A stretch of DNA of 64,000 bases from Colwellia sp. (GTDB lineage Bacteria; Pseudomonadota; Gammaproteobacteria; Enterobacterales; Alteromonadaceae), in assembly GCA_029938115.1 (NCBI GenBank), contig JAPYOP010000009.1:4989-68988 (forward strand), written 5' to 3'. The notes under the pieces are model-generated. The model ran no database searches. It was not told the origin of the DNA and saw only the letters and a program-made list of their open reading frames with translations. Shown here piece after piece: positions 77 through 39,624 of this stretch (position 1 is its first letter; each line of letters begins with the position of its first letter). A program made the translations under genes and the position numbers.

Positions 77-1597
77 GTGAATAAACCAACATTTTTAAAA
101 GCAAAACTGGTCGGTGTGTTTATTGCCATGGCTTTTTCAGTAAACCTATTTGCTGAGCCGATGGGAGATGATAAAGCTAAAAAGCCAAATATAGTCTTTA
201 TTGCTATTGATGATATGAATGATTGGGTCGGCTATATGGGGGGGCATCCTCAAGCGATGACACCTAATATGGATAAGTTGGCAAATGAAGGTGTAGCATT
301 TATGAACGCCCACAGTGTTGCGCCGGGGTGTTCGCCAAGCAGAAATGCTTTGTTGTATGGTGTTGAGCCATATAATTCGGGGTTATATCCGTTTTATGAA
401 TTTGATCTTCATAAACAGCTTAAACAAAAATACACAAGCTTACCCACGTTATTAAAGAACAACGGCTATAACACTTATGGATCGGGTAAAATTCATCATG
501 GAAAAGAATATGGTGAAACAGAATGGACAGGTTATTTAGATGCTGACCACCAACCAAAAACGTTTGCCAAAGATAAAGGTTTCGCTACAAACAAAAAAAA
601 TTCATTCAGGCCAACAACTAACCCATACAAAGAGATGTTTGATCATCAAGTAGCGTCATACGGTATTGATGTTATTAAAAATAAACAAAAAAATGATAAG
701 CCATACTTTGCTGCAATTGGTTTGGTAAAACCCCATTTACCTTTTGATTGTCCCGTAGATCTTTATGATGCTTTACCTGAAAATATTACTCCACCAGCCT
801 TATTAGAAAGTGATCTAAATGATATTGGTAAAGAAGGTAATAGCATGCGCCGCGCAGGCGATGATAAAAAATTTACCGCGAAAAACCAGTGGGGCGACGT
901 AAGAAAAGCGTATTTATCATGCATTGCTTGGGCTGATTATAATGTGGGCAGAATATTAGCTGCAGTTGAACAAAGCCCTGAAGCAGACAATACCATCGTT
1001 ATCTTATGGTCTGATCATGGCTATCATTTAGGTGAAAAGAAATCATTCAAAAAGTTTACCTTGTGGGAAGAAGCTAATCGTGTGCCTTTTATCATTCACG
1101 ACAGAAGAGAAAAAGAAATTGTTCAAGGGCGTAAAGTTACCCAAGCAGTAACGCTAATAAATGTTTATAGAACTTTGGCAGAAATGGCAGGCATAAAAGC
1201 GCCTGACTATGTGGATGGCAATAGTTTAGTGCCGCAGTTATTAAATCAATCATCTCCCGTTTTAGCGCCCGCTATTGCGAGTTGGGGGCGTGGTAATTAC
1301 GCGGTACGTACTGAAAACTGGCGATTTATTCAATACTTTGATGGAGCACAAGAGCTTTATAATCATCAAAACGATAACAACGAATGGCATAATTTGGCCA
1401 AACTACCTGAATACAAAGCTAAGGTTGACGAATTATCGGCTTTATTGCCAAAAAATGAAGCACCTACGGTGGAAGAGTATATTTCACAATGGAGTATTTT
1501 CGGTGCGGATAGAGCCCGTCTAAAAAATGACTCAGCTAAACAATCAAAAAAGCAAAATAAGAAGAAAAAGAAGAATAAAAAAAATAAGGTAAAATAA
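77..1597 (+). CDS. Secreted sulfatase (S1 family, iduronate-2-sulfatase-like)
   Basis: This is a type I sulfatase expected to remove sulfate esters from a polysaccharide in the periplasm or outside the cell. It has an N-terminal signal peptide (cleavage near residue 26), a metal-binding IDDMND segment near residues 44-49, and the formylglycine signature C-S-P-S-R at 85-89, whose Cys would be converted to formylglycine. A second metal motif, SDHGYHLGEK, lies in the C-terminal half. The length of 506 aa is normal for S1. The start is GTG, preceded by AAGAAGAG. The last 20 residues are unusually basic, with about 13 lysines, in a low-complexity K/N tail. The stop codon overlaps the start of the next gene (TAATG). 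It opens a nine-gene co-directional run of polysaccharide-degrading genes. The exact sulfate position attacked cannot be told from sequence. No sulfatase-maturing enzyme is in the window. Confidence 0.9.
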   Translation: MNKPTFLKAKLVGVFIAMAFSVNLFAEPMGDDKAKKPNIVFIAIDDMNDWVGYMGGHPQAMTPNMDKLANEGVAFMNAHSVAPGCSPSRNALLYGVEPYNSGLYPFYEFDLHKQLKQKYTSLPTLLKNNGYNTYGSGKIHHGKEYGETEWTGYLDADHQPKTFAKDKGFATNKKNSFRPTTNPYKEMFDHQVASYGIDVIKNKQKNDKPYFAAIGLVKPHLPFDCPVDLYDALPENITPPALLESDLNDIGKEGNSMRRAGDDKKFTAKNQWGDVRKAYLSCIAWADYNVGRILAAVEQSPEADNTIVILWSDHGYHLGEKKSFKKFTLWEEANRVPFIIHDRREKEIVQGRKVTQAVTLINVYRTLAEMAGIKAPDYVDGNSLVPQLLNQSSPVLAPAIASWGRGNYAVRTENWRFIQYFDGAQELYNHQNDNNEWHNLAKLPEYKAKVDELSALLPKNEAPTVEEYISQWSIFGADRARLKNDSAKQSKKQNKKKKKNKKNKVK

Positions 1598-2580
1598 TGA
1601 ATAAATACTTTTCATGTTTTTTATTAACCCTAGTACTCGCGAGCATTTTGTTTGGTTGTACTAGCAAGCAAGAGGTTGCCTTTAAACATATTGGCAACCC
1701 GTTAATTCGTCACATGTATACGGCGGATCCGTCTGCTCGTGTATTCGACGGTAAATTATACCTATATACCTCTCACGATAGAGATGACACCAATCATCAG
1801 CAGCACTTTGATATGACTGATTGGCACGTTTTCTCAACCAGTAATTTGACTGATTGGCTTGATCACGGTGCTTTTTTTGGTCTTGATGATATTGAATGGG
1901 CTTCGAAGCAAGCATGGGCACCAGATGCGGTTATGCGTAACGGTAAGTATTATTTTTATTACCCAGTAGAGCAGGCCAAGATTGGCGTTGCGGTAAGTGA
2001 TTCACCTGTAGCTGGTTTTAAAGATCCGTTGGGAAAGCCACTTATTGATAAAACAGGCAATGAAAAGGTTGTCGGACGAGAGCCGATAGACCCAGTAATA
2101 TTAATCGATGATGACGGACAAGCTTATATGTATTTTGGTTGTCGTGACGCTAGGGTAGTAAAGCTCAAAGACAACATGATAGAACTTGATGGCAACATTC
2201 AACCCGTTCAGATTAATGGTATTGACCATTTTACTGAAAAAAGCGGTGGTGGTTGGTATGGCGAAGGTCCTTGGGTATTCAAGCGTGGTAAATACTATTA
2301 CTACATGTATTCAAACGGCTGGGAAAAAAACACCACTTTAGTTTATGCCATAGCAACTCAGCCGCAAGGTCCATTTGAGTTTGTCGGTGAAGTTATGACA
2401 CCTGTTGGTGCTGGCACCAGTCACGGTTCTATTACTGAGTTTAACGATAAGTGGTATGTGTTTTATCACAGTAAATTGTTATCAAACCAAGGTAAGCAAC
2501 GCTCAGTGCATTTTGATGAAATATTCTTTGATAAAGGTGGGAAAATTATACCGTTTCAATATAAAAATAAAAAATTATGA
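1597..2580 (+). CDS. GH43-family glycosidase lipoprotein
   Basis: A five-bladed beta-propeller glycosidase of family GH43, whose members include arabinofuranosidases, xylosidases and galactosidases. It has a lipoprotein signal peptide with lipobox L-F-G-C (Cys21). The expected acidic residues are visible: Asp44 in T-A-D-P-S as likely base, Asp165 in I-D-P-V as pKa modulator, and Glu223 in Y-G-E-G-P as likely acid. The length of 327 aa is a bare catalytic domain with no binding module. Its ATG overlaps the stop of the upstream sulfatase, and its own stop overlaps the next gene, so translation is probably coupled. Arabinose or galactose removal fits the context, but substrate specificity is not readable from sequence. 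Confidence 0.85.
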   Translation: MNKYFSCFLLTLVLASILFGCTSKQEVAFKHIGNPLIRHMYTADPSARVFDGKLYLYTSHDRDDTNHQQHFDMTDWHVFSTSNLTDWLDHGAFFGLDDIEWASKQAWAPDAVMRNGKYYFYYPVEQAKIGVAVSDSPVAGFKDPLGKPLIDKTGNEKVVGREPIDPVILIDDDGQAYMYFGCRDARVVKLKDNMIELDGNIQPVQINGIDHFTEKSGGGWYGEGPWVFKRGKYYYYMYSNGWEKNTTLVYAIATQPQGPFEFVGEVMTPVGAGTSHGSITEFNDKWYVFYHSKLLSNQGKQRSVHFDEIFFDKGGKIIPFQYKNKKL

Positions 2581-3296
2581 GTAGACTTTTATTTTCTTTA
2601 ACACTTCTATTGTTTGCACTACCAGTATACGCACAAAAAGTGTTTGTGTTTTCAGGAGCAAAAGATCCTGTTACTGATATTTCTAGCAAGGTGATAGTTG
2701 AAGCCTATAATCGCATTGGTTTTGATGTCCAAATTGAACAATTTCCCTCGGCACGATCACTTGCAATGGCTAATGAGGGTACAGTTGATGGCGAGGTTGG
2801 TCGCATAGAAGGAATTGAAAGTGTCTACCAAAATTTATTAAGGGTACCTGTTGCTATTAATGTTGTTGAAGGTGTAGTTTTTACGAAAAAAGATATTGAT
2901 TGTTTTCCTAATTGGCAAGCTTTAAAGCCATATGTTATTGGCATTAAGCGAGGAGATATTTTTATCGAAAATGGGACAAAAGGTATGCAAGTAATACCTG
3001 TTGCGAACAGTAACCAATTATTTAAGATGTTAGACAAAGAACGAACAGATGTTGTGGTATTAGCTAAATTAACAGGTTTAAGTCAACTTGAAAAACGTGG
3101 CATTAAAGGTATAAAGATGTGTGAGTCAGCTATTTCTCAAGTGTATTTATATCACTATTTGCATGAAGATAATGCCTCTCTTATTCCTACTCTAACCAAA
3201 GCACTTAAAGAAATGGAAGCCGAAGGTCGAATTAAAGACATTAGAAAAACTGCAATAAGCAGGCTTCTAGCAAGAGAAAAAAATGAAAAAATTTAG
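2577..3296 (+). CDS. Orphan periplasmic solute-binding protein (family 3-like)
   Basis: A secreted 239-aa protein with a clear signal peptide (MSRLLFSLTLLLFALPVYA, then Q). It resembles the bacterial extracellular solute-binding family 3 fold: two-lobe size, and a segment V-D-G-E-V-G-R-I-E typical of the first lobe. No ABC permease or ATPase lies anywhere near it, so import by a cognate transporter is unsupported here. It overlaps the GH43 gene by 4 bp (ATGA) and the next sulfatase by 14 bp, so it belongs to the operon and is probably translationally coupled. It may bind a small ligand for sensing, or pair with a transporter elsewhere. The ligand is unknown. Confidence 0.7.
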   Translation: MSRLLFSLTLLLFALPVYAQKVFVFSGAKDPVTDISSKVIVEAYNRIGFDVQIEQFPSARSLAMANEGTVDGEVGRIEGIESVYQNLLRVPVAINVVEGVVFTKKDIDCFPNWQALKPYVIGIKRGDIFIENGTKGMQVIPVANSNQLFKMLDKERTDVVVLAKLTGLSQLEKRGIKGIKMCESAISQVYLYHYLHEDNASLIPTLTKALKEMEAEGRIKDIRKTAISRLLAREKNEKI

Positions 3297-4860
3297 TCAA
3301 ATAACATTAGTTTTCCTCTCAATGATAGTTAGCCACTTTGTGTTAGCAGCAGAGGTTGTAAAAGAAAAACCAGTCAATATTTTATTTATTATGGCAGATG
3401 ATCTTAATGACTTTATTGGTGTTATGAATAATAGCACAGGTGTTAAAACGCCAAATATTGATAAGTTAGCCGCACAAGCGACGCTGTTTACTAATGCACA
3501 TTCAAATGCGCCAATTTGTAGCCCGTCAAGAGCTAGCCTATTTTCTGGTATACAGCCCCATGAGTCTGGTCAATATGCTTTTGGTAATTGGCGACAAAAT
3601 CCTATTCTGGCAAATTCAAGAACGATTATGGAGCAACTTAGTTTTCATGGTTACCATAGCGCTGGTACCGGAAAGTTAACCCATCATCAATGGGCAAAAG
3701 CATGGGATGATTTCGGAATTAGACCCGATTACACTCCGTTAGCCTTTAATGGCAAAAAGCCCGTTGGACACCCTGACGTTCCGTTTCCTTATAACACTGA
3801 TATAGGGCCATTAGATTCAACCTTTATCCCGCTTTCAAAAGTACCCAATGTTAAGCCTACGGGTAATAAACCGGGTCATAATGGCTGGTATTATGGTGGT
3901 TTTAAGAAGCCATTTCGTTATGTAAATGAAACTGACAGAGATCCATTGCCAGATGAAATGTATGCCCAGTGGACTGTTGATAAACTGGCTGAATTTGAAA
4001 AAAACAAGCTTGAAAAACCATTCTTTTTAAGTGTCGGTTTTATTAGACCACACACACCATTAGTTGCTCCTGACAGGTTTTTTGAACTCTATCCATTAGC
4101 TGATATTAAGCTACCAGATTTTATTGACAAAGATGATGAAGATACTCATTTTGAAAGTTTGTATGCGCCTAAGTCGTCCTTAGGTAGAAAACATTACAAT
4201 ACGCTTATGGCATCATTTCGCTCAAAAGATGAAGCACTACGTAAATACTATCAAGCTTATATGGCCAGTATTAGTTTTATGGATGAGCAGGTGGGTAAAG
4301 TCTTAGACGCCTTAAATAACAGTATTTATAAAGACAATACCATCGTCGTTTTTACCTCTGATCATGGATATAACTTAGGTGAAAAGAACAACTTATTTAA
4401 AAATAATCTCTGGCAACGTTCAACGCAAGTGCCTATGATTATTTTTGATCCCCGTACTAAGAAAAAACAAACCATTTCAGAGCCCGTAAGTTTAATTGAC
4501 TTATACCCAACCTTTGTCGATTACGCCAATGTAAAAGGGGACAATCGCAAAAATGATAAAGGATTACCAATAAGCGGTTCATCCCTTAAACCATTAATCG
4601 AAGGGCAAGAAAATCTTGTAGATACCAAAGAGCGCTTCGCTTTAACCGTTGTGAAATTGTGGGGGGGAAAGGGGGCGAAAAGTTTTTCAATTAGAACGAA
4701 AGACTGGCGCTACATCAAATACGGCAATAACAAAGAAGAGCTGTATTACAACAATGTTGATCCCAATGAAATCGTTAATTTAACAGACAACCTTCAATAC
4801 GCTGCTGTTAAAGCACAATTAAAAAGCAAACTTGAGCAAGCAACTAAAAATGCTAAATAG
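3283..4860 (+). CDS. Secreted sulfatase (S1 family)
   Basis: A second type I sulfatase of 525 aa with an N-terminal signal peptide ending near L-A-A (residue 23). The N-terminal metal motif is A-D-D-L-N-D (38-43), and the formylglycine signature is C-S-P-S-R at 79-83. A later T-S-D-H-G-Y-N-L-G-E-K segment carries the second metal-binding pair. It resembles the first sulfatase in the DD-x-ND motif (iduronate-2-sulfatase-like) but is clearly divergent, so it probably acts on a different sulfate position or linkage. It overlaps the solute-binding gene by 14 bp. A 43-bp gap separates it from the downstream SGNH hydrolase. Confidence 0.9.
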   Translation: MKKFSQITLVFLSMIVSHFVLAAEVVKEKPVNILFIMADDLNDFIGVMNNSTGVKTPNIDKLAAQATLFTNAHSNAPICSPSRASLFSGIQPHESGQYAFGNWRQNPILANSRTIMEQLSFHGYHSAGTGKLTHHQWAKAWDDFGIRPDYTPLAFNGKKPVGHPDVPFPYNTDIGPLDSTFIPLSKVPNVKPTGNKPGHNGWYYGGFKKPFRYVNETDRDPLPDEMYAQWTVDKLAEFEKNKLEKPFFLSVGFIRPHTPLVAPDRFFELYPLADIKLPDFIDKDDEDTHFESLYAPKSSLGRKHYNTLMASFRSKDEALRKYYQAYMASISFMDEQVGKVLDALNNSIYKDNTIVVFTSDHGYNLGEKNNLFKNNLWQRSTQVPMIIFDPRTKKKQTISEPVSLIDLYPTFVDYANVKGDNRKNDKGLPISGSSLKPLIEGQENLVDTKERFALTVVKLWGGKGAKSFSIRTKDWRYIKYGNNKEELYYNNVDPNEIVNLTDNLQYAAVKAQLKSKLEQATKNAK

Positions 4861-4903
4861 TATTAATCAAATTTGTATAACTAAATAATAATAGGAAGAA
4901 TAG

Positions 4904-5623
4904 ATGAAAATTTTTTTACTGTGTTTAGTGCTGTTGTGCACCAGTTGCACGGCTTTAAAAGAACAACCGCTGTCGGTTTTACCCGAAGCTCAGTCGGAAG
5001 TTTGGGCGGTAAAATGGTGGCATCCACGACATGAAGAAAAAATAGCCCTGAAAGAAAAAATGGATAAAGTTGATCTGGTTTTCCTTGGCGATTCAATCAC
5101 TCACGCATGGGATAATAAAGGTAAAAAGGTCTGGGATGAATACTACAGTAGCCGTAATGCCTTAAATATTGGCTTTAGTGCTGACAGAACTGAGCACGTA
5201 TTATGGCGATTAAATCATGGTGCCATTGATGGCATCGATCCTAAACTGTTGGTTTTGATGATAGGAACTAATAACACAGGACATCGTCAGGATACCCCTG
5301 AAGATACTGCTTTGGGGATAAAAGAAATCCTCAATACCATTGAACATAAATTACCAAATACTAAAATATTGCTTTTAGCGATATTTCCTCGCGGTTCAAA
5401 CCTTGATGATCCATTACGTAAAATTAACGATGATATCAATAGCATTATCAAAAATTATCAAGACGAAGAACGCGTTTATTATTTAAACATTAATCATCTA
5501 TTTCTTGATGACAATGGTGTTCTTAGTAAGTCAGTGATGAGCGATTTATTACATCCAAATAAAGACCAATATATCGTATGGGCAAAAGCTATAGAGCCAA
5601 ATATCAAGGAGCTCATGCAATAG
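4904..5623 (+). CDS. SGNH/GDSL-family esterase lipoprotein
   Basis: A 239-aa esterase of the SGNH hydrolase superfamily, similar to PAF-acetylhydrolase-like proteins. The lipobox C-T-S-C gives a lipidated Cys15. The four blocks are present: G-D-S (62-64, nucleophile Ser64), a Gly in G-F-S-A-D, G-T-N-N, and a C-terminal D-L-L-H-P containing the catalytic Asp/His. In this operon it most likely removes acetyl or other acyl groups from the polysaccharide so that glycosidases can act. A good RBS (AGGAAGA) precedes its ATG. Exact ester specificity is unknown. Confidence 0.82.
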   Translation: MKIFLLCLVLLCTSCTALKEQPLSVLPEAQSEVWAVKWWHPRHEEKIALKEKMDKVDLVFLGDSITHAWDNKGKKVWDEYYSSRNALNIGFSADRTEHVLWRLNHGAIDGIDPKLLVLMIGTNNTGHRQDTPEDTALGIKEILNTIEHKLPNTKILLLAIFPRGSNLDDPLRKINDDINSIIKNYQDEERVYYLNINHLFLDDNGVLSKSVMSDLLHPNKDQYIVWAKAIEPNIKELMQ

Positions 5624-5711
5624 TATAGCTCGAATAAGAATATTTAACGCTCAGATAAAGACAGCCTAAAAAGCAATTTAAACCAAATAAGAATAACGAG
5701 GGTAAAAAATC

Positions 5712-7259
5712 ATGACAAAAAAACTATTCATCAGTGGTGTGATCACTATGCTGTTGACTGCATGTGGCGTAGACCAATCCAGCAAGGTAAGTACTTTAGA
5801 TAGCGATCTTAAAGAAAATAAGCCCAATGTAGTTATTTTCTATGTAGATGACCTAGGGTTTGGCGACATCAGCAGCTATGGGATGACTGCAGCTAAAACA
5901 CCGAATGTTGATGCCTTAGCTAATGAAGGTATTCGCTTCACGGATGCACATAGCTCAGCAGCAACCTGTACTCCGTCACGTTATTCTTTATTAACTGGCC
6001 AATATGCCTTTAGAAATAATGCGGCTATTTTACCGGGTGATGCGCCACTTATCATTGATCATACTAAACCAACGCTGCCAAAAATGTTTAAACGAGCGGG
6101 ATATAAAACTGCAGTAGTTGGCAAATGGCATTTAGGCTTAGGGGATGGTTTTGTAGATTGGAATAAATCAGTAAAACCAGGCCCTTTAGAATTAGGCTTT
6201 GATTATAGCTTTTTGATGCCAGCGACCGGCGATAGAGTACCAACGGTTTACTTAGAGAACCATCATGTGGTTAATTTGGATACCAATGAACCTATTACAG
6301 TGAGTTATGAAAAACGCATTGGTCAACGTCCTGTTGGCACTGAGAACCCTGAGTTATTAAAGCAAAAGGCTGATTTACAGCACAGTGCCACCATAGTAAA
6401 CGGCATTAGCCGTATTGGCTGGATGGCTGGCGGTAAAGAAGCTGAGTGGGTAGATGAAGATTTTCCCTTTGTATTTACTGACAAAGCCATAGAGTTTATT
6501 CAATCGGCAAAAGATGAGCCGTTTATGTTGTTCTTTCCATTTCATGATATTCACGTACCACGAGTACCAAACGCATTATTTGCTGGAAAATCAGGCATGG
6601 GACCAAGAGGCGATGCCATTTTACAGATGGACTGGATGACAGGTCGCATTGTTGATGAACTAAAAAAACTAGGTTTGTATGACAATACCCTGATTATTTT
6701 CTCAAGTGACAATGGTCCGGTTATGGACGACGGTTATGCTGACATGGCTGAAGAGATGCGTGGTGACCATGATCCTTCTGGTGGTTATCGAGGCGGAAAA
6801 TATAGTGCCTATGAAGCAGGAACTCGCGTTCCAATGATTGTCACTTTTCCAAATGGTCTAAAAAATAAAGGCGACAGTTCAGCATTAATTAGCCATATTG
6901 ACTTGTATCGAACATTATCTGAGTTTGTTGGATTGGAGCTTGTCAAAGGAGAAGCAATCGATAGTAAGAATATATTGTCTGCTTTGTTAGATGCAAAAGC
7001 AAAGGGTAGGGATGAGATGTTAGAAGAGTCTTTTACTCTGTCGTTACGAAGTGGAAAGTGGAAATATATCGCGCCTTTTAATGGTACAACACCAGAATGG
7101 TTAGCCAATAAAACGGCTATCGAAAATGGCTTGAAAACTACACCTCAATTGTTTGATATTACCAATGATTGGCAGGAAAAAGTGAATTTAGCTCCTGGAT
7201 ATCCTGAGGTGGTTGAGCGCTTACAACAGCGTATTGAAGCAATCAAAGAAATGCATTAA
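5712..7259 (+). CDS. Sulfatase lipoprotein (arylsulfatase-like S1)
   Basis: A 515-aa type I sulfatase of the arylsulfatase-like type. The lipobox L-T-A-C gives a lipidated Cys18, so the enzyme is membrane-anchored. The metal motif is Y-V-D-D-L-G-F-G-D near residues 45-53, the formylglycine signature is C-T-P-S-R at 86-90, and G-K-W-H-L-G lies in the region that holds a conserved Lys/His in S1 enzymes. It follows an 88-bp gap and a GAGGGTAA ribosome-binding site. Its sequence type (DDLGFGD) differs from the two upstream sulfatases (DDMND, DDLND), which suggests action on a different sulfate. Confidence 0.9.
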   Translation: MTKKLFISGVITMLLTACGVDQSSKVSTLDSDLKENKPNVVIFYVDDLGFGDISSYGMTAAKTPNVDALANEGIRFTDAHSSAATCTPSRYSLLTGQYAFRNNAAILPGDAPLIIDHTKPTLPKMFKRAGYKTAVVGKWHLGLGDGFVDWNKSVKPGPLELGFDYSFLMPATGDRVPTVYLENHHVVNLDTNEPITVSYEKRIGQRPVGTENPELLKQKADLQHSATIVNGISRIGWMAGGKEAEWVDEDFPFVFTDKAIEFIQSAKDEPFMLFFPFHDIHVPRVPNALFAGKSGMGPRGDAILQMDWMTGRIVDELKKLGLYDNTLIIFSSDNGPVMDDGYADMAEEMRGDHDPSGGYRGGKYSAYEAGTRVPMIVTFPNGLKNKGDSSALISHIDLYRTLSEFVGLELVKGEAIDSKNILSALLDAKAKGRDEMLEESFTLSLRSGKWKYIAPFNGTTPEWLANKTAIENGLKTTPQLFDITNDWQEKVNLAPGYPEVVERLQQRIEAIKEMH

Positions 7260-7275
7260 GCATGGGGCTAATTTA

Positions 7276-8472
7276 ATGACTAAAATGTTTAGACAATATC
7301 GAATAGTCGCTAATATTAGCGTTATTCTTGTTTTTGTTTTTTCAACACTCTTAGTTAAAGCCAAAGAGCAAGCCTCAAAGCAAAAAGCAGACTTTAATCC
7401 CGGAAAAATATGGCATGACAATAATGGTGTTCATATTAACGCGCATGGTGGCGGAGTATTGCATCATAAAGGGCAATACTATTGGTTTGGTGAGCACAAA
7501 ATTGCCGGATCAGAGGGAAACAAAGCGCATGTAGGGGTGCATGTTTATAGCTCAAGCAATCTAACAAGCTGGAAAGATGCTGGAATTGCACTCAAAGTGT
7601 CTGATGATCCTAGTAGTGATATTGTTAAAGGTTCGGTCATTGAACGCCCTAAAGTGGTTTATAACAAGCAAACCGGCAAATTTGTCATGTGGTTTCATCT
7701 TGAGTTAAAAGGGCAAGGATACAAAGCCGCGCGCACTGGCGTTGCGGTGTCAGATAAACCAACAGGCCCTTACCTATTTATCAAAAGTTTGCGTCCTAAT
7801 GCAAAGACTTATCCGATGAATATTAGTAAAGCAGAAAAGCAAGCGGTAGGCTTGTTACTGAAAGGGCAAGAACTGCCAGAAACACTTGCCAGTAACATTG
7901 ACAATTTAGCCGTGCTTAAGGTTTTTGCTCGTGATTTTTCTGGTGGTCAAATGGCGCGTGATATGACGGTGTACGTGGATAAAGACGATAAGGCTTATCA
8001 AGTTTATTCTTCTGAAGAGAACTTAACGTTACATGTCTCTTTGTTAAGCGATGATTATCTTTCACATACAGGAATTTATACTCGATTGCACCCTGGAGGG
8101 AGAAACGAAGCACCCGCTGTCGCTTATCATCAGGGTAAATATTATTTACTAACTTCCGGGCTCTCGGGCTGGCGTCCAAATCCAGCGAGACAATATGTAG
8201 CAGAGCAAATAATGGGCCCTTGGAAAAAACTAAGTAATCCTACTACAGGCGTAAACGCTCAAAACAACTTTGGCCCAGAAAAGACCTTTGGTGGGCAAAG
8301 TACCTTTTTGTTAGAACGATACGATCAGCCCGGCCAATTCATTGCCATGTTCGACATCTGGCGACCTAAAAATGCCATTGATGGTCGTTATATCTGGCTG
8401 CCTGTTGAATTTAAAAATGGCGCTATGTTTATCAAATGGCAAGAGAATTGGCAACTAAATGCTTTTGAGTAA
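7276..8472 (+). CDS. GH43 enzyme resembling exo-beta-1,3-galactanases
   Basis: A 398-aa secreted GH43-type beta-propeller. The reading frame is open from 7213, but ATG at 7276 is preferred: it follows the upstream stop, has GGGG at 7264-7267, and begins a hydrophobic signal segment. The motif set resembles exo-beta-1,3-galactanases of GH43 subfamily 24: N-A-H-G-G-G (55-60) with Y-Y-W-F-G-E, E-R-P-K (Glu123), N-E-A-P (Glu278, candidate acid), S-G-W-R-P-N-P, G-G-Q-S (Gln341, candidate base in place of the usual Asp), and a late W-R-P / R-Y-I-W pair. That family removes galactose from beta-1,3-galactan and can bypass side branches. A Lys/Glu-rich insertion at about 165-215 appears extra. The subfamily call is by memory of motifs and could also be a neighbouring GH43 subfamily. 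Confidence 0.72.
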   Translation: MTKMFRQYRIVANISVILVFVFSTLLVKAKEQASKQKADFNPGKIWHDNNGVHINAHGGGVLHHKGQYYWFGEHKIAGSEGNKAHVGVHVYSSSNLTSWKDAGIALKVSDDPSSDIVKGSVIERPKVVYNKQTGKFVMWFHLELKGQGYKAARTGVAVSDKPTGPYLFIKSLRPNAKTYPMNISKAEKQAVGLLLKGQELPETLASNIDNLAVLKVFARDFSGGQMARDMTVYVDKDDKAYQVYSSEENLTLHVSLLSDDYLSHTGIYTRLHPGGRNEAPAVAYHQGKYYLLTSGLSGWRPNPARQYVAEQIMGPWKKLSNPTTGVNAQNNFGPEKTFGGQSTFLLERYDQPGQFIAMFDIWRPKNAIDGRYIWLPVEFKNGAMFIKWQENWQLNAFE

Positions 8473-8514
8473 ATTTATGTTTCAGCACACTGCAAAATTG
8501 GAAGTATTAATAAA

Positions 8515-10311: not shown

Positions 10312-10317
10312 CAGCTT

Positions 10318-13148: not shown

Positions 13149-13197
13149 AACATTTCACCGGTAACATTCATTTTAATTTTTTCAATACACCGTTCAA

Positions 13198-14769: not shown

Positions 14770-14794
14770 TATTCCAAGGTCTCTTTTTAATTAA

Positions 14795-14837: not shown

Positions 14838-14855
14838 AACAGGTTACGCTAAATC

Positions 14856-24956: not shown

Positions 24957-24996
24957 ATCATTGAGCGTTGTTATTATCTTTATTTTGTTAAGTTAC

Positions 24997-25042
24997 ATAA
25001 AAAGGGCAGGTTAGCCTTGGCATATAACCGTGCTTAACCTAG
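24997..25042 (-). terminator. Intrinsic terminator after beta-galactosidase
   Basis: An AAAAGGGC-AGGTTAGC type arm (from about 24999) pairs imperfectly with GCTTAACCT-AGCCCTTTT (to about 25040). On the minus strand a T-rich tail follows the stem. It lies just after the beta-galactosidase stop at 25073. Confidence 0.75.
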
Positions 25043-25072
25043 CCCTTTTAAAACCCAGCAGAATGCCGAGAA

Positions 25073-30629
<5,557 letters not shown>

Positions 30630-30666
30630 AGTAATTTTAGCTCTTTCACTTTCTTATTTTAGTTAG

Positions 30667-32244: not shown

Positions 32245-32275
32245 TGTTACTTCTCTTATTGTTTTTGCTTTTTGT

Positions 32276-32379
32276 GGGAACGTTGTCATTCTGCTTTGTA
32301 GTTAACATACGCTATTTAGGTGTGCATATGCAAGCATTAATCTAATTAATGAGTGGTTTGTTTTGGTAACGTTGTCCTT
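32276..32379 (-). promoter_or_regulatory. Promoter with two operator-like boxes
   Basis: GGGAACGTTGTCATT (32276-32290) and GGTAACGTTGTCCTT (32365-32379) match at 13 of 15 positions, 89 bp apart, each centred on AACGTT. Between them, on the minus strand, lie TTGCAT (32333-32328), 18 nt, and TATGTT (32309-32304), a sigma70-like promoter. The near box would sit just downstream of the start of transcription. The central CG suggests a LacI-family site, and the adjacent LacI-family gene is the obvious candidate binder. Confidence 0.45.
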
Positions 32380-32484: not shown

Positions 32485-33495
32485 TCAGCTGGATTTAAAG
32501 CTTGTCGATTCTCGTTTGACTAGCCTTGGAATGTGTTTATAATTTTTGTTTAGATTTAATTCTACTTGCTTGGTTGATAGCTCAAGCCCTATGTTGGCTG
32601 CTTGCATTGCCATTTCTTCAATAGGGTAATTGAGTGTGCTCAATTTTGGTCTTGAATACCTAGACAGTAAAACATCATCAAAACCGAGCACTGAAATATC
32701 ATATGGCACTTTAAAACCATTATCCTCTAAGGTAGAAATTGCCCCTATTGCCATGGCATCGTTATAAACAAACAACGCAGAAAAACTCTTACCATAGGCA
32801 AGTAGTTTTTGAGTTGCCATCTCGCCTCCCTGAAGGTTAGGATCGCCATATTCAATAAGGTTTGGTTCAATATCAACGCCTGCGGACTGTAGCTCATTTT
32901 GAAAGCCTTGCAATCTAAGTAGTGGATCGTCAATTTGATATTTACTTGATATACAGGCAAAGCTTTTATGATTTAAGGCTAAAAGGTGACGAGCTGCAAT
33001 TTTACCTCCCTCGGTATTATCTAACCAAACACAGCGATGTGCTATCTCTTCAATATAGCGATCTATAAGCACTAAGCCTGATACTTTATTAGCTAGATCA
33101 ATCAATACTTGATCAGATAATTTCTTACTATGCACGACCATCACATCACATCGTCTTTCAATCAATAAATTAATGGCTTGCATTTCAGATTCGGCAGTGA
33201 CTAATCCGGTACTTAATAGTAATTGCATGTTTTTTTTTCGAGCCACTTGTTCAACGCCATTAGCCAAAGAAGCAAAAAATGGGTCAACTAGATCAGGAAT
33301 AACAACACCTAAGGTGGTACTTTTTTGAGTGACTAACGCACGGGCATTTGCATTTGGTGTGTAGTTTAACTCTTTCATCACCTTTAATACTTTTTCTATC
33401 GTCTTTTTACTGACTTTTGGACCATTATTTAATACTCGTGATACTGATGCCACTGACACGCCAGAGAGTCGAGCTACGTCTTTTATTGTTGCCAT
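32485..33495 (-). CDS. LacI/GalR-family transcriptional regulator
   Basis: A 336-aa repressor-type regulator. The helix-turn-helix is I-K-D-V-A-R-L-S-G-V-S-V-A-S-V-S-R-V-L-N (residues 3-22), followed by the hinge Y-T-P-N-A-N-A-R-A-L and a periplasmic-binding-protein-like effector domain (V-V-I-P-D-L-V-D-P-F-F...). It is divergent from galT with a palindromic site between, so galactose or a galactoside is the likely effector. It is also just upstream of, and co-directional with, the sulfatase/beta-galactosidase operon. Name left blank because LacI members cannot be told apart by eye. Confidence 0.9.
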   Translation of the reverse strand: MATIKDVARLSGVSVASVSRVLNNGPKVSKKTIEKVLKVMKELNYTPNANARALVTQKSTTLGVVIPDLVDPFFASLANGVEQVARKKNMQLLLSTGLVTAESEMQAINLLIERRCDVMVVHSKKLSDQVLIDLANKVSGLVLIDRYIEEIAHRCVWLDNTEGGKIAARHLLALNHKSFACISSKYQIDDPLLRLQGFQNELQSAGVDIEPNLIEYGDPNLQGGEMATQKLLAYGKSFSALFVYNDAMAIGAISTLEDNGFKVPYDISVLGFDDVLLSRYSRPKLSTLNYPIEEMAMQAANIGLELSTKQVELNLNKNYKHIPRLVKRESTSFKSS

Positions 33496-33616
33496 TTATT
33501 ATCGCCGAGGGTAATTGTTTACATTGCTGTATTATGTTTGTGTTTGCTTGAATATACACTAAAGATGAGTTGGTCATCAAGAGGCAATCTATTTTAAATT
33601 AGTTCTTGCACAAAGT

Positions 33617-33634
33617 AGGGTAAACGATTACCCT
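33617..33634. promoter_or_regulatory. LacI/GalR-type operator upstream of galT
   Basis: AGGGTAAACGATTACCCT has perfect 7-bp arms around a CG-containing centre, typical of LacI-family operators. It lies in the divergent gap between the LacI-family gene and galT. A weak sigma70-like pair (TTGGTC 33570-33575, TTAAAT 33594-33599) precedes it, which would put the operator just after the transcription start. Confidence 0.6.
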
Positions 33635-33671
33635 TTGGGTATGTTTTAAATAATGATTACTTTTAAATATT

Positions 33672-34715
33672 ATGACTAACGAATTTGACCCAACTGAACA
33701 TCCACATCGACGATATAATCCACTCATTGATGAATGGGTGCTAGTTTCCCCACATCGAGCCAAGCGACCTTGGCAGGGACAAGTAGAAAAACTTGATGAA
33801 CAAGAAAAATCCTCATATGACAAAGATTGTTTTTTATGTGCGGGAAATACTCGCATCAATGGTGAAGTCAACGAAGACTATAAAAAAACCTTTGTCTTTA
33901 CTAATGATTTTGCAGCGATCAAGCAAGACACACCTGTGGTGACAACTGATGATCCACTTTTTAAAATGGCGACAGAACAGGGTGAAAGTCGTGTTATTTG
34001 TTTTTCACCTGATCATAGTAAATCCTTGCCTCAGTTATCTGTGAAGGAAATTTCACTTATCGTCGATACATGGCAAAGCCAGTGTAAAGAATTAGGGGGA
34101 ACTTACTCCTGGGTGCAGGTATTTGAAAATAAGGGCAGTGTCATGGGATGCTCTAATCCACATCCTCATGGGCAGATATGGGCGCAAAAACAATTACCAA
34201 CTTTAGTTGTTAAAAAACAAAATGCGCAGCAGGTCTACTTTGAGAAATATGGCAGTAATTTATTACAGGATTATGTTGTTAGAGAAGTCAAAAATAAAGA
34301 TCGTATTGTGGTGGTGAATGATGACTGGCTAGTGGTTGTGCCTTATTGGGCTGCTTGGCCATTTGAAACGTTACTGCTACCACGTTTTTCTGTGTCACGT
34401 ATTACGGAACTTAACAGCACACAAAAGTTATCACTTGCGGATATTCTTAAGCAATTAACCATCAAATATGACAACTTATTTAATTGCTCTTTTCCGTACT
34501 CAATGGGCTGGCATGGCGCACCTTTTGATGGGCAACAACATGATGAATGGACTTTACACGCTAGCTTCTTTCCGCCATTACTTCGTTCTGCCACGGTTCG
34601 TAAATTTATGGTGGGTTATGAAATGATGGCTGAAGCACAACGCGATCTTACCGCAGAACAAGCAGCTGAACGATTACGAAATTTGCCTGATATTCATTAT
34701 AAGGAGCAAAGCTAA
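33672..34715 (+). CDS. galT: Galactose-1-phosphate uridylyltransferase
   Basis: A 347-aa GalT. It transfers UMP from UDP-glucose to galactose-1-phosphate in the cytosol, in the Leloir pathway. The start H-P-H-R-R-Y-N-P-L and W-V-L-V-S-P-H-R are family signatures. C-x-x-C (F-L-C-A-G region) is zinc-site-like, and N-P-H-P-H-G-Q-I-W contains the active-site His-Pro-His. The end ([17 protein letters not shown]) is standard. The ATG has no strong RBS. The stop overlaps the galK start by one base. First gene of the gal operon. Confidence 0.96.
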
Positions 34716-35887
34716 TGACTCAAATAAATTTAGCACAACAAAACGTTGAGCAAAAAGAGCTTGTCCAACAATTATTTGAACAACAATTTAAACGCTCAGC
34801 AGAATTGATTGCTCATGCACCTGGTCGAGTAAATTTAATTGGTGACCACACTGATTACAATGACGGTTTTGTACTTCCCGCTGCCATTAATTATGGCACA
34901 ACTATAGCTGCATCAGCTCGTAAAGATAAAGTCATTAAGGTTTATGCCCATGATTGCGAACAACAAACTAGTGAGTTTACTCTGAATGAGATTTCGTTTG
35001 ATCAGGATATGATGTGGAGCAACTATGTAAAAGGAACATTACAAGCTTTAATGAAAACACACCCTGAAATTAATGGCGCAAATCTAGTGGTTACTGGTGA
35101 TGTGCCTCAAGGGGCTGGTTTAAGTTCCTCTGCAAGTTTTGAAATTGCCATTTTAAAAACGTTTGCACAGCTTTATCATTTAGAACTAGATGGCATCAGT
35201 GCAGCCCTTATAGGTCAACAAGCAGAGAATAACTTTGTTGGTTGTAATTGTGGCATCATGGATCAACTTATCTCGGCAATGGGACAACAAGATCATGCTA
35301 TGTTGCTAGATTGTAGAAGTTTATCCTTTGAGGATGCCCCCATTCCTGATAACTTTACCCTCTTTATTGTTAATTCAAATGTAAAACGCGGCTTGGTTGA
35401 TAGCGCGTATAATTTAAGAAGAGAGCAATGTGAGCAGGTTGCCAAGTTCTTTGGTGTTTCTGCTTTACGAGATGTGACTTTAGAACAGTTAAGCTCAGCT
35501 AAAGAACAAATTGACCCAGTATTTTTTAAACGTGCTCGGCACGTGATTAGTGAAAATGCTAGAGCGATAATTACTTTAAAAGCTCTAAAGAATAATGATA
35601 TAGAAAAGATTAGTATAGCAATGAAAGAGTCTCATATTTCTTTGCGTGATGACTTTGAAGTGACCACCAAGGAAATGGATGGCTTGGTTGAAATGATAGA
35701 TAGTGTGTTAGGTGTTGAAGGTGGGGTTCGTATGACTGGTGGCGGTTTTGGCGGTTGTATTGTTGCCTTAGTGCCAACAAGTATGGTCGAACAAGTAAAG
35801 GACGTTGTTAACAGCAGATACGAGAAAGAATTTGGTTTATCACCAAGTATTTACCTATGCATTGCAACACAAGGTGCATTTAGATAA
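34715..35887 (+). CDS. galK: Galactokinase
   Basis: A 390-aa GHMP kinase that phosphorylates galactose at C1 using ATP. Motifs include A-P-G-R-V-N-L-I-G-D-H-T-D-Y-N (galactokinase signature), P-Q-G-A-G-L-S-S-S-A-S (ATP loop), and R-M-T-G-G-G-F-G-G-C near the end. An AAGGAG site at the galT end serves its ATG, which overlaps the galT stop (TAATG), so translation is coupled. Confidence 0.96.
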   Translation: MTQINLAQQNVEQKELVQQLFEQQFKRSAELIAHAPGRVNLIGDHTDYNDGFVLPAAINYGTTIAASARKDKVIKVYAHDCEQQTSEFTLNEISFDQDMMWSNYVKGTLQALMKTHPEINGANLVVTGDVPQGAGLSSSASFEIAILKTFAQLYHLELDGISAALIGQQAENNFVGCNCGIMDQLISAMGQQDHAMLLDCRSLSFEDAPIPDNFTLFIVNSNVKRGLVDSAYNLRREQCEQVAKFFGVSALRDVTLEQLSSAKEQIDPVFFKRARHVISENARAIITLKALKNNDIEKISIAMKESHISLRDDFEVTTKEMDGLVEMIDSVLGVEGGVRMTGGGFGGCIVALVPTSMVEQVKDVVNSRYEKEFGLSPSIYLCIATQGAFR

Positions 35888-35951
35888 TTCTTTGAAATGT
35901 ATAACAAGCTTAAATATAAAAATTATAACTTAAAGTAAAAGGTGGAAAATT

Positions 35952-37526
35952 ATGGATTTTGCAAACAAATTGGGGACGATAGACACGACAATTTTTATTG
36001 TCTACGTTATAGGCTTATTGTGCCTTGCTTTATGGATTTCTCGCAGTGAGAAAAAAGAAGGGGTAAATACCGAAGACTATTTCTTAGCAAGTAAATCGTT
36101 ACCTTGGTGGGCTATCGGTGCTTCTTTAATTGCAGCGAATATTTCTGCTGAACAAATTATCGGCATGTCAGGCTCGGGTTATGCCATTGGTTTAGCTATA
36201 GCTTCTTACGAATGGATGGCAGCCATTACCTTGGTGATAGTCGGTAAATACATGTTGCCAATTTTCTTGAAAAATGAAATTTTCACCATGCCGCAATATC
36301 TTGAACAACGTTTTGATAACAAAGTAAAAACCACCATGTCAATCTTTTGGTTAGCGGTATACACCTTTGTTAACTTAACGGCGGTATTATGGTTAGGTGG
36401 CTTGGCTATTGAAAGCGTTGCAGGTGTCGATTGGATGTTCGGCATGATATTTTTAGCGGTGTTCTCAGTTGCTTATTCTTTATATGGCGGTTTAAAAGCG
36501 GTTGCATTTACCGACATATTACAAGTAGTGTTATTAGTGTTTGGTGGCTTGTTACTCAGCTATTTAGCCTTAGATGCTGTTGCTGATGGTCAAGGGGTAT
36601 TAGCCGGTTTTGGTATTCTGACCGAGACTATGCCTGATCATTTTGACATGATTTTAAGTCCTGACAATAGTAATTACATGAGCCTTCCTGGTATTTCGGT
36701 ATTACTTGGTGGTATGTGGGTAATGAATTTTAGTTATTGGGGCTTTAACCAATATATTATTCAACGCGCATTGGCTGCTAAAGATCTTAAAGAAGCACAA
36801 AAAGGTATCGCTTTTGCCGCTTACCTTAAATTATTAATGCCACTTATTGTTGTGCTACCAGGCATTGCTGCGGTTATTCTTTATCCAACACTTTCTAAGC
36901 CTGATGAAGCTTATCCTGCAATGATGGCAATGTTACCTGTTGGAATAAAAGGGCTAGTTTTTGCCGCATTAGTTGCTGCCATCGTCTCTTCGTTAGCATC
37001 TATGACAAACAGTATATCAACCATATTTACCATGGATATTTATTCTCACTTTAAGCCCAACAAAAGCCAACGTCATTATGTAGGTGTTGGTCGTATTGCT
37101 GCATTAGTTTCTTTGTGTATTGCTTTAATCGTTGCTCAACCCTTATTAGGCGAGTTTGACCAAGCATTTCAATATATCCAAGAATTTACCGGTTTCTTCA
37201 CGCCAGGCATAGTGGTTATATTTATGTTAGGTATGTTCTGGAAACGGGCTACATCAATGGGTGCGTTATCGGCTGCATTGGGCTCAGCAGTCTTTTCATT
37301 AGTCCTTAAGTTTGCTTGGCCAGAGTTGCCATTTATGGACCGCGTTGGTTTAGTGTTCTTGTTGTGTTTAGCTGTTTGTTATTTTGTGTCGATCATGGGC
37401 AAACCAAATACTACGGATAGCAGTGTGAGTTTAGATGATGTGAGCTTTGCCACAACTAAATCATTTAATGTCGCGTCAGTGGGTGTAATACTTATCCTTA
37501 CCGCTTTATACGCCACTTGGTGGTAA
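35952..37526 (+). CDS. Sodium/galactose symporter (SSS family)
   Basis: A 524-aa inner-membrane symporter of the solute:sodium symporter family, with about 14 hydrophobic helices. S-L-I-A-A-N-I-S-A-E-Q-I-I-G-M-S-G and A-Y-S-L-Y-G-G-L-K-A-V-A-F-T-D are typical of SglT-like sugar carriers. Position between galK and galE makes galactose (or glucose/galactose) the likely cargo, complementing periplasmic galactose release. AAGGTGG precedes the ATG. A strong intrinsic terminator follows. Confidence 0.9.
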   Translation: MDFANKLGTIDTTIFIVYVIGLLCLALWISRSEKKEGVNTEDYFLASKSLPWWAIGASLIAANISAEQIIGMSGSGYAIGLAIASYEWMAAITLVIVGKYMLPIFLKNEIFTMPQYLEQRFDNKVKTTMSIFWLAVYTFVNLTAVLWLGGLAIESVAGVDWMFGMIFLAVFSVAYSLYGGLKAVAFTDILQVVLLVFGGLLLSYLALDAVADGQGVLAGFGILTETMPDHFDMILSPDNSNYMSLPGISVLLGGMWVMNFSYWGFNQYIIQRALAAKDLKEAQKGIAFAAYLKLLMPLIVVLPGIAAVILYPTLSKPDEAYPAMMAMLPVGIKGLVFAALVAAIVSSLASMTNSISTIFTMDIYSHFKPNKSQRHYVGVGRIAALVSLCIALIVAQPLLGEFDQAFQYIQEFTGFFTPGIVVIFMLGMFWKRATSMGALSAALGSAVFSLVLKFAWPELPFMDRVGLVFLLCLAVCYFVSIMGKPNTTDSSVSLDDVSFATTKSFNVASVGVILILTALYATWW

Positions 37527-37545
37527 AAAGAACAATAATTTAAAC

Positions 37546-37595
37546 AAGGTCAATTACTATCCATTTGATTAGTAATTGACCTTTTCTATTTTTAG
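37546..37595 (+). terminator. Intrinsic terminator inside the gal operon
   Basis: AAGGTCAATTACTA (37546-37559) pairs perfectly with TAGTAATTGACCTT (37570-37583) in a 14-bp stem with a 10-nt loop, followed by TTCTATTTTT. It sits between the symporter and galE. It probably lowers galE-galM expression relative to galT-galK-symporter unless antitermination or a second promoter exists. Confidence 0.85.
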
Positions 37596-37603
37596 GACAA
37601 AAA

Positions 37604-38629
37604 ATGAAAGTATTAGTTACAGGGGGCGCTGGATATATAGGCTCTCATACAGTTTTATCGCTATTAGAAAATAATTATGATGTTATCGTTTATGATAATT
37701 TAGTTAACTCAAGTGTTGAATCTCTTGATCGAGTTGAAAAGCTAGCTGGAAAATCTGTCGAGTTTGTTGAAGGTGATATCTGTGATAAAGCTGCATTAAG
37801 CCATGTATTTAAAAAATTTAAAATTGATGCTGTTATTCATTTCGCTGCACTCAAAGCGGTTGGTGAGTCGGCACAAATTCCATTAAGTTATTATCAGAAC
37901 AATGTTCATGGCTCTGTTTGCTTGTTAGAAGTGATGCAGGAAAATGATGTACATAACTTCATCTTTAGTTCCTCAGCCACAGTTTATGGAGAAGAAAATG
38001 AAGTGCCTTATGTTGAAACGATGAAGTTAGGCACACCTTCTAGCCCTTATGGCGCAAGTAAAGTGATGGTCGAGCGTATACTCGCTGATATGACTGTTTC
38101 GAATGGACGTTTTAGAGGTGTTTCTTTACGCTATTTCAATCCTATCGGTGCCCATGAAAGTGGTGGTATAGGCGAAGATCCAACAGGTATTCCCAATAAT
38201 CTTCTGCCTTATGTGGCGCAAGTTGCTGTGGGTAAACGTGATAAACTCAGTATCTTCGGTGATGATTATCCTACTAAAGATGGTAGCTGTGAACGTGATT
38301 ATTTACACGTGATGGATTTAGCCCAAGGACATGTTGCAGCATTAAATTGGTTGAATTGTAACGATGAATTTCGCGGAGTTGAAGCCTTTAATTTAGGTAC
38401 AGGCAATGGGATTTCAGTATTTTCTATTGTAAAAGCATTTGAAAAAGCCACTAATAAAATCATCCCATTTGAAGTCTCGCCAAGAAGAGCAGGGGACCTT
38501 CCCGCTTTTTGGGCTAATGCTAATAAGGCAAATAAAGAACTTAATTGGCAAGCTAGTCGAAGCTTAGAGCAAATGATGGAGGATACTTGGCGTTGGCAAT
38601 CAAATAATCCAGATGGATATTTAACTTAA
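37604..38629 (+). CDS. galE: UDP-glucose 4-epimerase
   Basis: A 341-aa extended short-chain dehydrogenase-type epimerase that interconverts UDP-galactose and UDP-glucose. Visible are G-G-A-G-Y-I-G-S-H (NAD-binding, residues 7-15), F-S-S-S-A-T-V-Y-G and S-P-Y-G-A-S-K (Tyr/Lys pair), and the substrate motif N-P-I-G-A-H. AGGA precedes the ATG. The stop overlaps the galM start by one base. Confidence 0.96.
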   Translation: MKVLVTGGAGYIGSHTVLSLLENNYDVIVYDNLVNSSVESLDRVEKLAGKSVEFVEGDICDKAALSHVFKKFKIDAVIHFAALKAVGESAQIPLSYYQNNVHGSVCLLEVMQENDVHNFIFSSSATVYGEENEVPYVETMKLGTPSSPYGASKVMVERILADMTVSNGRFRGVSLRYFNPIGAHESGGIGEDPTGIPNNLLPYVAQVAVGKRDKLSIFGDDYPTKDGSCERDYLHVMDLAQGHVAALNWLNCNDEFRGVEAFNLGTGNGISVFSIVKAFEKATNKIIPFEVSPRRAGDLPAFWANANKANKELNWQASRSLEQMMEDTWRWQSNNPDGYLT

Positions 38630-39624
38630 TGGCTAATTTGATAACAGATTTGGAAACTGTATTACTGACCAATGATAATGGCATGTCAGTTGAAATTATT
38701 AATTTTGGCGGCAGAATTAAGTCAATTAAGTTTCCTGTTAATTCCAAACCTACGGAAATGATTTTAGGTTATTCATCTGCACAAGCATATTTAAATGATG
38801 AGTTTTATTTAGGAGCTACTTGTGGCAGGGTGTGTAATCGTATTGCAGGTGGAAAATTTGAACTTTCTGGTCGTCAATTTCATTTACCCTTAAATGATGG
38901 GATGAATTGTTTACACGGTGGTGATAACAATTTCTCTTTACGTTATTGGCAAATTGATAAACAAAAGCTTACTCATTGTTCGGTTACTTTATTACTGGTA
39001 TCGGATGATGGAGACCAAGGCTTTCCTGGCACGCTAAACGTGTCTGTAACCTATGAGTTAAGTGAAGATAATAAACTGAGTATTCAATATTCGGCCAATA
39101 CTGATTTAGCTACACCCGTTAATTTAACCAACCATGCTTATTTTAATTTGGGTGAAAAAGACAGTCAATCTTTGTATTTACAAATCAAGTCATCAGCCTA
39201 TCTTGAGAGTAATTCAGAAAATTTGCCTACGGGGAAAATCCTTGGGGTAGCGGAAACAGATTATAATTTTAGAGAACCAGCTTCTGTTGGGATTCGTCAA
39301 CAAAATACTGAAGATAAATCTATTAAAACAAAAAATGGTTACGATCACTGTTTTGTTTTAGATAATTCTCCCATTGAAGAGCCCAAAGCAATTCTTACAT
39401 CAGTAAAAAATCAAGTTAGTTTGTCAGTTTATACCGACCAGCCAGCCATACAGCTTTATACGGGTTATTATTTAACGGGCCAATTTAAATCATATCAAGG
39501 ACTATGTTTAGAAGCGCAAAACTATACAGATGCGGATAATAATAAGCATTTTCCTAGTAATGTTTTGATGCCAAATCAACAATATCAACGAAGAATTACC
39601 TTTGGGTTCGCGTCCATTAATTAG
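38629..39624 (+). CDS. galM: Aldose 1-epimerase (galactose mutarotase)
   Basis: A 331-aa mutarotase that converts beta- to alpha-galactose for GalK. Family marks are G-A-T-C-G-R-V-C-N-R-I, N-D-G-M-N-C-L-H-G-G, N-L-T-N-H-A-Y-F-N-L (catalytic His), D-H-C-F-V-L, and late L-C-L-E-A-Q-N-Y-T-D-A (catalytic Glu). Its ATG overlaps the galE stop. A 15-bp tandem duplication spans its stop codon. Confidence 0.93.
   Translation: MANLITDLETVLLTNDNGMSVEIINFGGRIKSIKFPVNSKPTEMILGYSSAQAYLNDEFYLGATCGRVCNRIAGGKFELSGRQFHLPLNDGMNCLHGGDNNFSLRYWQIDKQKLTHCSVTLLLVSDDGDQGFPGTLNVSVTYELSEDNKLSIQYSANTDLATPVNLTNHAYFNLGEKDSQSLYLQIKSSAYLESNSENLPTGKILGVAETDYNFREPASVGIRQQNTEDKSIKTKNGYDHCFVLDNSPIEEPKAILTSVKNQVSLSVYTDQPAIQLYTGYYLTGQFKSYQGLCLEAQNYTDADNNKHFPSNVLMPNQQYQRRITFGFASIN

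Follow-up and report, generated by a model that had tools for sequence, protein, structure and literature searches.

Organization of the locus

A stretch of 64,000 nucleotides from a Colwellia sp. draft genome (the window below; positions 4989-68988 of contig C244) carries, between positions 77 and 39624, genes for sulfatases, esterases, glycosidases, TonB-dependent receptors and galactose metabolism that probably serve the use of a sulfated, acylated galactan. The genome comprises 5.2 Mb in 278 contigs, is 99.64% complete and has been assigned to the genus that includes Colwellia piezophila. Gene content was established by Pfam and NCBIfam profile scans of 40 of the 46 listed open reading frames (ORFs) of the window.

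The genes are arranged in strand-wise blocks. An operon-like run on the forward strand (77-11805) encodes three sulfatases, two enzymes of glycoside hydrolase (GH) family 43, a GDSL esterase, a solute-binding-like protein, a beta-helix protein and a clan GH-A-like enzyme. It is followed on the reverse strand (12057-21346) by genes for a lactonase-like propeller, a SASA esterase and two TIGR01782 TonB receptors, then by fecI and fecR on the forward strand, by a second reverse-strand run (23775-32289) for a DUF418 protein, a GH2 LacZ, an esterase-beta-helix fusion and a sulfatase, and by a last block (32485-39624) in which galR precedes galT, galK, a symporter gene, galE and galM.

A preliminary description of this DNA had listed four sulfatases, three esterases, two GH43 enzymes, a GH2 beta-galactosidase, two TonB receptors, FecI/FecR and a Leloir set with a Na+/sugar symporter, all of which were recovered by the profile scans; it lacked the lactonase-like, DUF418, GalR-like and solute-binding-like genes. 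Its gene list was thus right, and its start at position 77 was not, since three further sulfatase genes on the same strand lie just upstream of the window, at C244:341-4772.

Sulfatases

Seven S1 sulfatase genes belong to the locus, four within the window and three upstream. The four products in the window match PF00884 with E values of 1e-49 or better, and each contains a C-x-P-S/T-R motif. The protein encoded at 5712-7259 (forward strand), which has a lipobox-like start and CTPSR at residue 86, is a D-galactose-6-sulfate sulfatase of the S1_15A type by its similarity: it aligns over residues 16-512 with S1_15A of the lambda-carrageenan cascade (9bas) at 905 bits, versus 633 bits for S1_15B (9bau), and its W463 and flanking residues align with the W471 loop of S1_15A. 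The latter enzyme is limited to the galactose-6-sulfate monosaccharide because the helix carrying W471 closes its pocket (PMC12549532).

The sulfatase encoded on the reverse strand at 30667-32289 (CSPTR at residue 105) is presumed to belong to S1_16. It scores 632 bits against 7oz9, 308 against 7oza and only 170 against the S1_16-labelled entry 9fo1, and 7oz9 and 7oza presumably represent the Bacteroides S1_16 enzymes for 4-sulfated galactose or N-acetylgalactosamine (PMC10154612). The two remaining enzymes of the window, S1a (77-1597, forward; CSPSR at residue 85) and S1b (3283-4860, forward; CSPSR at residue 79), have only distant solved relatives, the nearest being 6hhm at 170 bits and 6hr5 at 158 bits, respectively. 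Each of the three upstream proteins contains C-x-P-S-R, and PF00884 was confirmed for two of them; the middle of the three shares 57% identity with the window's S1_15 protein.

The FGE domain (PF03781) has three matches in the genome, one of which is a 286-residue protein encoded directly after a sulfatase gene on contig C272.

GH43, GH2 and GH-A-like glycosidases

The product of 7213-8472 (forward strand; the true start is probably inside the ORF) resembles GH43_24 exo-beta-1,3-galactanases, scoring 400 bits against 6eug, whose sequence is shared by 6eui, the structure of BT3683 (PMC7939473). In Pc1,3Gal43A, subsite -1 involves eight residues, namely Glu57, Glu102, Arg103, Asp158, Glu208, Trp229, Gln263 and Tyr126, with Glu208 as the catalytic acid and Gln263 as the base (PMC7939473). 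The Colwellia protein retains seven of the eight (E94, E144, R145, D250, E299, W320 and Q362), equivalents of acid and base included, an assignment made from the order and spacing of motifs rather than from an alignment with Pc1,3Gal43A; the eighth, Tyr126, was not mapped. The same seven residues are present in three plasmid homologues, two of which lie outside recognisable glycan clusters, the third coming from a record without annotation.

A second GH43 enzyme (1597-2580, forward; PF04616, E 1.2e-33; lipobox-like start) is of the xylosidase/arabinofuranosidase type, with matches to 4nov (3.7e-65) and 8hcj (5.6e-58). The GH2 protein (25073-28351, reverse; lipobox-like start) is a LacZ-type beta-galactosidase, scoring 1015 bits against NF052611 (cut-off 999).

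The clan GH-A glycosidase of the preliminary description (10318-11805, forward) is a putative one. A weak phmmer match (3s2c, E 2e-9) links it to alpha-L-arabinofuranosidase structures, which we take to be of family GH51. Members of the clan have an acid/base Glu that follows an Asn, and a nucleophile Glu, on a TIM barrel; here two glutamates are conserved among 10 aligned sequences, E170 being invariant and E264 present in 90% or more. Neither Pfam nor NCBIfam gave a credible score, and no Pfam model of GH51 matched at E values up to 1. Six loci with a relative of this gene were detected in a genome-contig scan, in Colwellia, an Opitutales metagenome-assembled genome (MAG), Flammeovirga, Gaetbulibacter, Carboxylicivirga and, weakly, a Peptococcaceae MAG, and the query matches 3 of 61 genomes (its own and relatives), 2 of them strongly. 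The C. piezophila relative is 70% identical, is extended at its C-terminus by some 360 residues and is neighboured by genes for a TonB receptor, GH2-like proteins, a LacI regulator and a sulfatase.

Esterases and GH136-like beta-helix enzymes

Three esterase domains were identified by Pfam: a GDSL esterase (4904-5623, forward; PF13472, 2e-25), a SASA-family acetylesterase (13198-14769, reverse; PF03629, 1e-21) and a BD-FAE domain within the product of 28344-30629 (reverse; lipobox-like start). As for the two beta-helix proteins reported earlier, the one at 8515-10311 (forward) is indeed a stand-alone protein, and the other proved to be the C-terminal half of the BD-FAE gene, which therefore encodes a fusion. 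In its esterase half, S161, D239 and H271, located in GGGSAGG, GEKD and PHGFF motifs, would form the predicted catalytic triad.

The stand-alone protein and the C-terminal half of the fusion match GH136 lacto-N-biosidases, a group that includes LnbX and ErLnb136 (best hit 6kqs, E 4e-22). The acid/base and nucleophile of ErLnb136 are D568 and D575, seven residues apart (PMC7335108), and they correspond to D343/D350 in the stand-alone protein and to D574/D581 in the fusion; the Asp pair is invariant in all seven proteins of the sequence alignment. The likeness thus comprises the catalytic beta-helix and the spacing of its two aspartates; it is distant, and ErLnb136 has an N-terminal GH136I domain where the fusion has an esterase (PMC7335108). 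Known GH136 members need a GH136I accessory domain or subunit for activity.

One further GH136-like gene is found on each of contigs C112 and C209 of the same genome. Among 369 genomes of the class, the fusion is full-length in its own genome only, with partial matches in three others; a full-length relative occurs in G108, a genome of the same family that came from a separate order-level draw of 295 genomes, and no prevalence figure follows from it. No description of this locus, or of an esterase-GH136 fusion, was met among the titles and abstract openings listed. A beta-helix relative in Sphingobium is surrounded by acyl-CoA and oxidoreductase genes instead of genes for glycan use, which argues against a strict tie of the GH136-like family to galactans.

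Uptake, regulation and galactose metabolism

Both TonB-dependent receptors exceed the TIGR01782 cut-off of 310 bits (14856-17741, reverse, 613 bits; 17978-21346, reverse, 566 bits) and lie beside glycan enzymes, as expected of a CUT-type proteobacterial TonB carbohydrate locus. The second has a signalling-type N-terminus (FecA model over residues 34-144, 1.3e-6), and next to it are genes for a FecI-type extracytoplasmic function (ECF) sigma factor (21641-22222, forward; PF08281, 8e-15) and a FecR anti-sigma regulator (22092-23285, forward; PF04773, 3e-19; true start probably inside the ORF). The locus is therefore of the TonB-receptor/FecI-FecR type and not a Bacteroidetes-type polysaccharide utilization locus (PUL). 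A SusC/SusD system was dropped as a candidate because the SusD family PF14322 was unmatched in the genome, in a search that was positive in 1 of 14 control genomes and that did not cover the second SusD Pfam family.

The Leloir genes, all on the forward strand, are galT (33672-34715) and galK (34715-35887), both identified in the Pfam scan, galE (37604-38629; TIGR01179, 448 bits) and galM (38629-39624; PF01263, 1e-82), with a sodium/sugar symporter gene (35952-37526; PF00474, 2e-67) between galK and galE. A LacI-family regulator encoded divergently (32485-33495, reverse) resembles GalR, with 355 bits to NF008002, below the cut-off of 557. Candidate GalR sites between galR and galT are GGTAAACGATTACC (33619-33632) and a partial site (33510-33523). 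Since the second search pattern was itself built on the first of these sites, and counts in the window are not above chance (11 versus 7.6 expected, and 5 versus 3.7), GalR control of the rest of the locus is not claimed.

Of the other genes, the solute-binding-like one (2577-3296, forward; PF00497, E 0.0017, below cut-off) lies inside the sulfatase operon with no adjoining ABC transporter gene. The lactonase-like protein is a 7-bladed beta-propeller (12057-13148, reverse; PF10282, 5e-56), and the DUF418 membrane protein (23775-24956, reverse; PF04235, 6e-31) is of uncertain membership in the locus.

Comparison with related loci

Within 75 kb of the G108 genome, relatives of the S1_16 sulfatase (56% identity), the esterase-GH136 fusion (59%) and the GH2 enzyme (76%) are found in the same order. 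The same 75 kb encode relatives of S1b (56%), the SASA esterase (54%), S1a (64%), the S1_15 sulfatase (74%), the stand-alone beta-helix protein (40%) and the symporter (82%). The three sulfatases encoded upstream of the window likewise have relatives there (69, 78 and 69%), in conserved order. In total, 13 ORFs of this region have their best match to a sulfatase of the Colwellia locus, the last one weakly.

Another sulfatase locus of the Colwellia genome itself, on contig C209, contains GH16, GH29 and GH2 genes and close copies of the GDSL (68%) and SASA (67%) esterase genes. The described clusters of Colwellia echini (PMC6952198), compared by description only, share the genus name and the use of sulfated galactans; unlike the present locus, they target kappa-carrageenan and agar.

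Candidate substrates

The locus had been ascribed to a sulfated, acylated galactan or arabinogalactan. Galactose, sulfate and acyl groups are borne out by the S1_15A-like sulfatase, the GH43_24 residues, the three esterases, the GH2 enzyme and the Leloir genes; the arabinogalactan half is not supported. Also in favour of the galactan reading are the symporter, the likeness of symporter and S1_15A-type sulfatase to neighbouring genes of a P. carrageenovora plasmid, the FGE match beside a sulfatase gene and the gene order shared with G108. AraA_N was unmatched in the 99.6% complete genome (the same search was positive in 5 of 14 control genomes; the oxidative arabinose route was not tested) and a xylose isomerase gene (xylA, 686 bits) is present, so that arabinose is disfavoured, and the closest relatives of the GH43 enzyme at 1597-2580 are xylosidase/arabinofuranosidases. 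The locus is thus probably a regulated scavenging system for a sulfated, O-acylated D-galactan with beta-1,3-linked galactose, which probably bears pentose side chains, of xylose rather than arabinose. The gene content, conserved catalytic residues and synteny are observed; the exact polymer we infer.

Several observations weigh against this reading. Within the window, none of the known families of endo-acting galactanases was encountered, and GH16 genes are located on contigs C209 and C210. The 75 kb of G108 contain no counterpart of the GH43 enzymes, the GH-A-like enzyme, the GDSL esterase, FecI/FecR or the gal operon (ORFs of at least 120 residues, blastp E 1e-5), so that the conserved core may lack the beta-1,3-galactan step. 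A G108 gene read by eye as GH95, together with the GH29 gene of C209, points to related substrates containing fucose or L-galactose. Two of the three FGE matches are in long ORFs (957 and 735 residues) and may represent different proteins with the same fold.

Among the alternatives, a strict sulfated arabinogalactan locus, directed at a sulfated arabinogalactan protein (AGP) of the Codium type and using GH43 to remove arabinose for consumption, is unlikely. It accords with the AGP case of Bacteroides plebeius, in which sulfatases accompany GH43_24 and desulfation precedes GH43_24 action (PMC8406133), and with the xylosidase/arabinofuranosidase matches of the second GH43 enzyme; the AraA_N result speaks against it, as does the absence of GH105 and GH127 models among the 40 window proteins scanned. 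PUL5 and PUL13 of B. plebeius resemble the Colwellia locus in combining sulfatases with a GH43_24 exo-beta-1,3-galactanase and in that GH2 and GH43 are among the named AGP families (PMC8406133). The Colwellia locus differs in having no SusD or araA match and in possessing three esterases and GH136-like enzymes; its sulfatases are S1_15 and putatively S1_16, with four of the seven not confidently assigned, versus S1_8 and S1_14 in B. plebeius (PMC8406133).

Degradation of lambda-carrageenan or another red-algal galactan is very unlikely, despite the likeness to the lambda-carrageenan PUL of Pseudoalteromonas distincta U2A and P. carrageenovora (PMC12549532; plasmid NZ_CP027525.1), which shares an S1_15A-type sulfatase, a GH2 enzyme, a TonB receptor, a Na+/sugar symporter and galK. 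Identities to proteins of the P. carrageenovora plasmid are 78% for S1_15A and 80% for the symporter, whose genes are neighbours, 49% for galK, 50% for a multiheme cytochrome encoded at 48412-50607 in the window, and 61% and 48% for the GH2 enzyme and a sulfatase of C209; on the plasmid the cytochrome gene adjoins galK, another likeness to the window. GH43_24, the GH136-like enzymes, the esterases and FecI/FecR distinguish the Colwellia locus from this system. A lambda-carrageenan PUL is marked by a GH150 lambda-carrageenase and a GH110 enzyme. A plasmid gene that, from its place and length, we take to encode the GH150 lambda-carrageenase was unmatched genome-wide in a search that, for want of a positive control, shows nothing by itself. 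Among the proteins of C244, C209 and C112 that were compared, no match to this gene or to the annotated alpha-galactosidase was found. We also know of no role for GH43_24 on alternating alpha-1,3/beta-1,4 chains, which counts against lambda-carrageenan.

A brown-algal acetylated, sulfated fucogalactan, of which the window cluster would handle the galactose part and C209 the fucose part, is likewise highly improbable: GH29 and the esterase copies on C209 would fit it, as would the relatives of window genes in G108 that occur with further sulfatase and GH2 genes within 75 kb, whereas L-fucose isomerase was unmatched in the genome (3 of 14 control genomes were positive; the oxidative fucose route was not tested), and GH29 enzymes can also be alpha-L-galactosidases. 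A mucin or glycosaminoglycan reading of the S1_15, S1_16-like and SASA proteins was considered and rejected; no sialidase or GH20 model was found among the scanned ORFs of the window.

Proposed pathway and significance

If the substrate is the proposed sulfated, acylated D-galactan, induction, localization and order of action can be inferred as follows. The signalling TonB receptor would sense polymer fragments and, through FecR and FecI, switch on the locus, and the two receptors would import oligosaccharides. In the periplasm, the seven S1 sulfatases and three esterases would remove substituents, and the chain would be cut by GH43, the GH136-like enzymes, the GH-A enzyme and GH43_24. The S1_15A-type sulfatase would clear galactose-6-sulfate and GH2 would free galactose, which would enter glycolysis via the Na+ symporter and GalM, GalK, GalT and GalE, under the control of GalR.

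A bolder and rather doubtful proposal is that two undescribed types of glycosidase act on the sulfated, acylated beta-1,3-galactan. The fusion lipoprotein might combine deacylation and GH136-like hydrolysis in one enzyme, first deacylating and then releasing a galactobiose-type unit, much as lacto-N-biosidases release lacto-N-biose, and the GH-A enzyme might represent a new family that makes internal cuts.

Marine algae contain sulfated galactans in abundance, polymers that are difficult to break down, and the known loci compared here concern carrageenan or, in a gut bacterium, sulfated AGP. As a kind of system the Colwellia locus is ordinary, a sulfated-galactan locus; its arrangement is uncommon, and the fusion and the GH-A-like enzyme have no close characterized relative. 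Its galactose-6-sulfate sulfatase and GH43_24 enzyme, the fusion of esterase and glycosidase and the unclassified GH-A enzyme are concrete proteins that can be assayed. Should the last two act in the way suggested above, both would represent new activities that could help to map algal galactans.

Flanking genes and an octaheme cytochrome

Downstream of the gal operon, an RND efflux operon (OEP, HlyD and AcrB-type; 39821-45658) precedes a block consisting of a DUF1800/DUF1501 pair (45737-48360) and a cytochrome gene. Similar pairs occur in related sulfatase loci (L033, 1099-5167; G108, 2038545-2042597), the DUF1501 similarity being only 27-28% and the G108 DUF1800 protein not having been scanned.

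The cytochrome (48412-50607) is an octaheme c-type protein with eight CxxCH motifs. A search of 197 genomes of the order matched it in 38 (E 1e-50 or better). Neighbourhoods of 10-12 kb were examined at 40 of the 44 places beyond the window's own, the four weakest being left out, in 36 genomes. An S1 sulfatase is encoded in half of them (20 of 40), and in 17 it is the next ORF of at least 100 residues, counts that ignore the kinship of the genomes; no sulfatase was found in 40 control stretches, which were cut at round coordinates from 23 of these genomes. The four most similar cytochrome places that were fetched (L066-L069) have no sulfatase. Neighbourhoods of cytochrome and sulfatase genes have been reported in Verrucomicrobia, for another cytochrome type (PMC5615132).

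An FGE-domain gene is near the cytochrome gene in only 2 of the 40 neighbourhoods. One of these is on contig C272 of the Colwellia genome (L086, 73-4877), where a sulfatase, an FGE-domain protein with a signal-peptide-like start and a cytochrome paralogue are encoded in one run; in the other (L084), the order is sulfatase, one ORF, FGE-domain protein and cytochrome. Such runs hint at the cytochrome as a putative redox partner in sulfatase maturation. In two further genomes (L070 in G100 and L071 in G134), the cytochrome gene adjoins galT-galK-galE and sulfatase genes, and a wider stretch of G134 contains a weak GH16-like match and other sulfatases.

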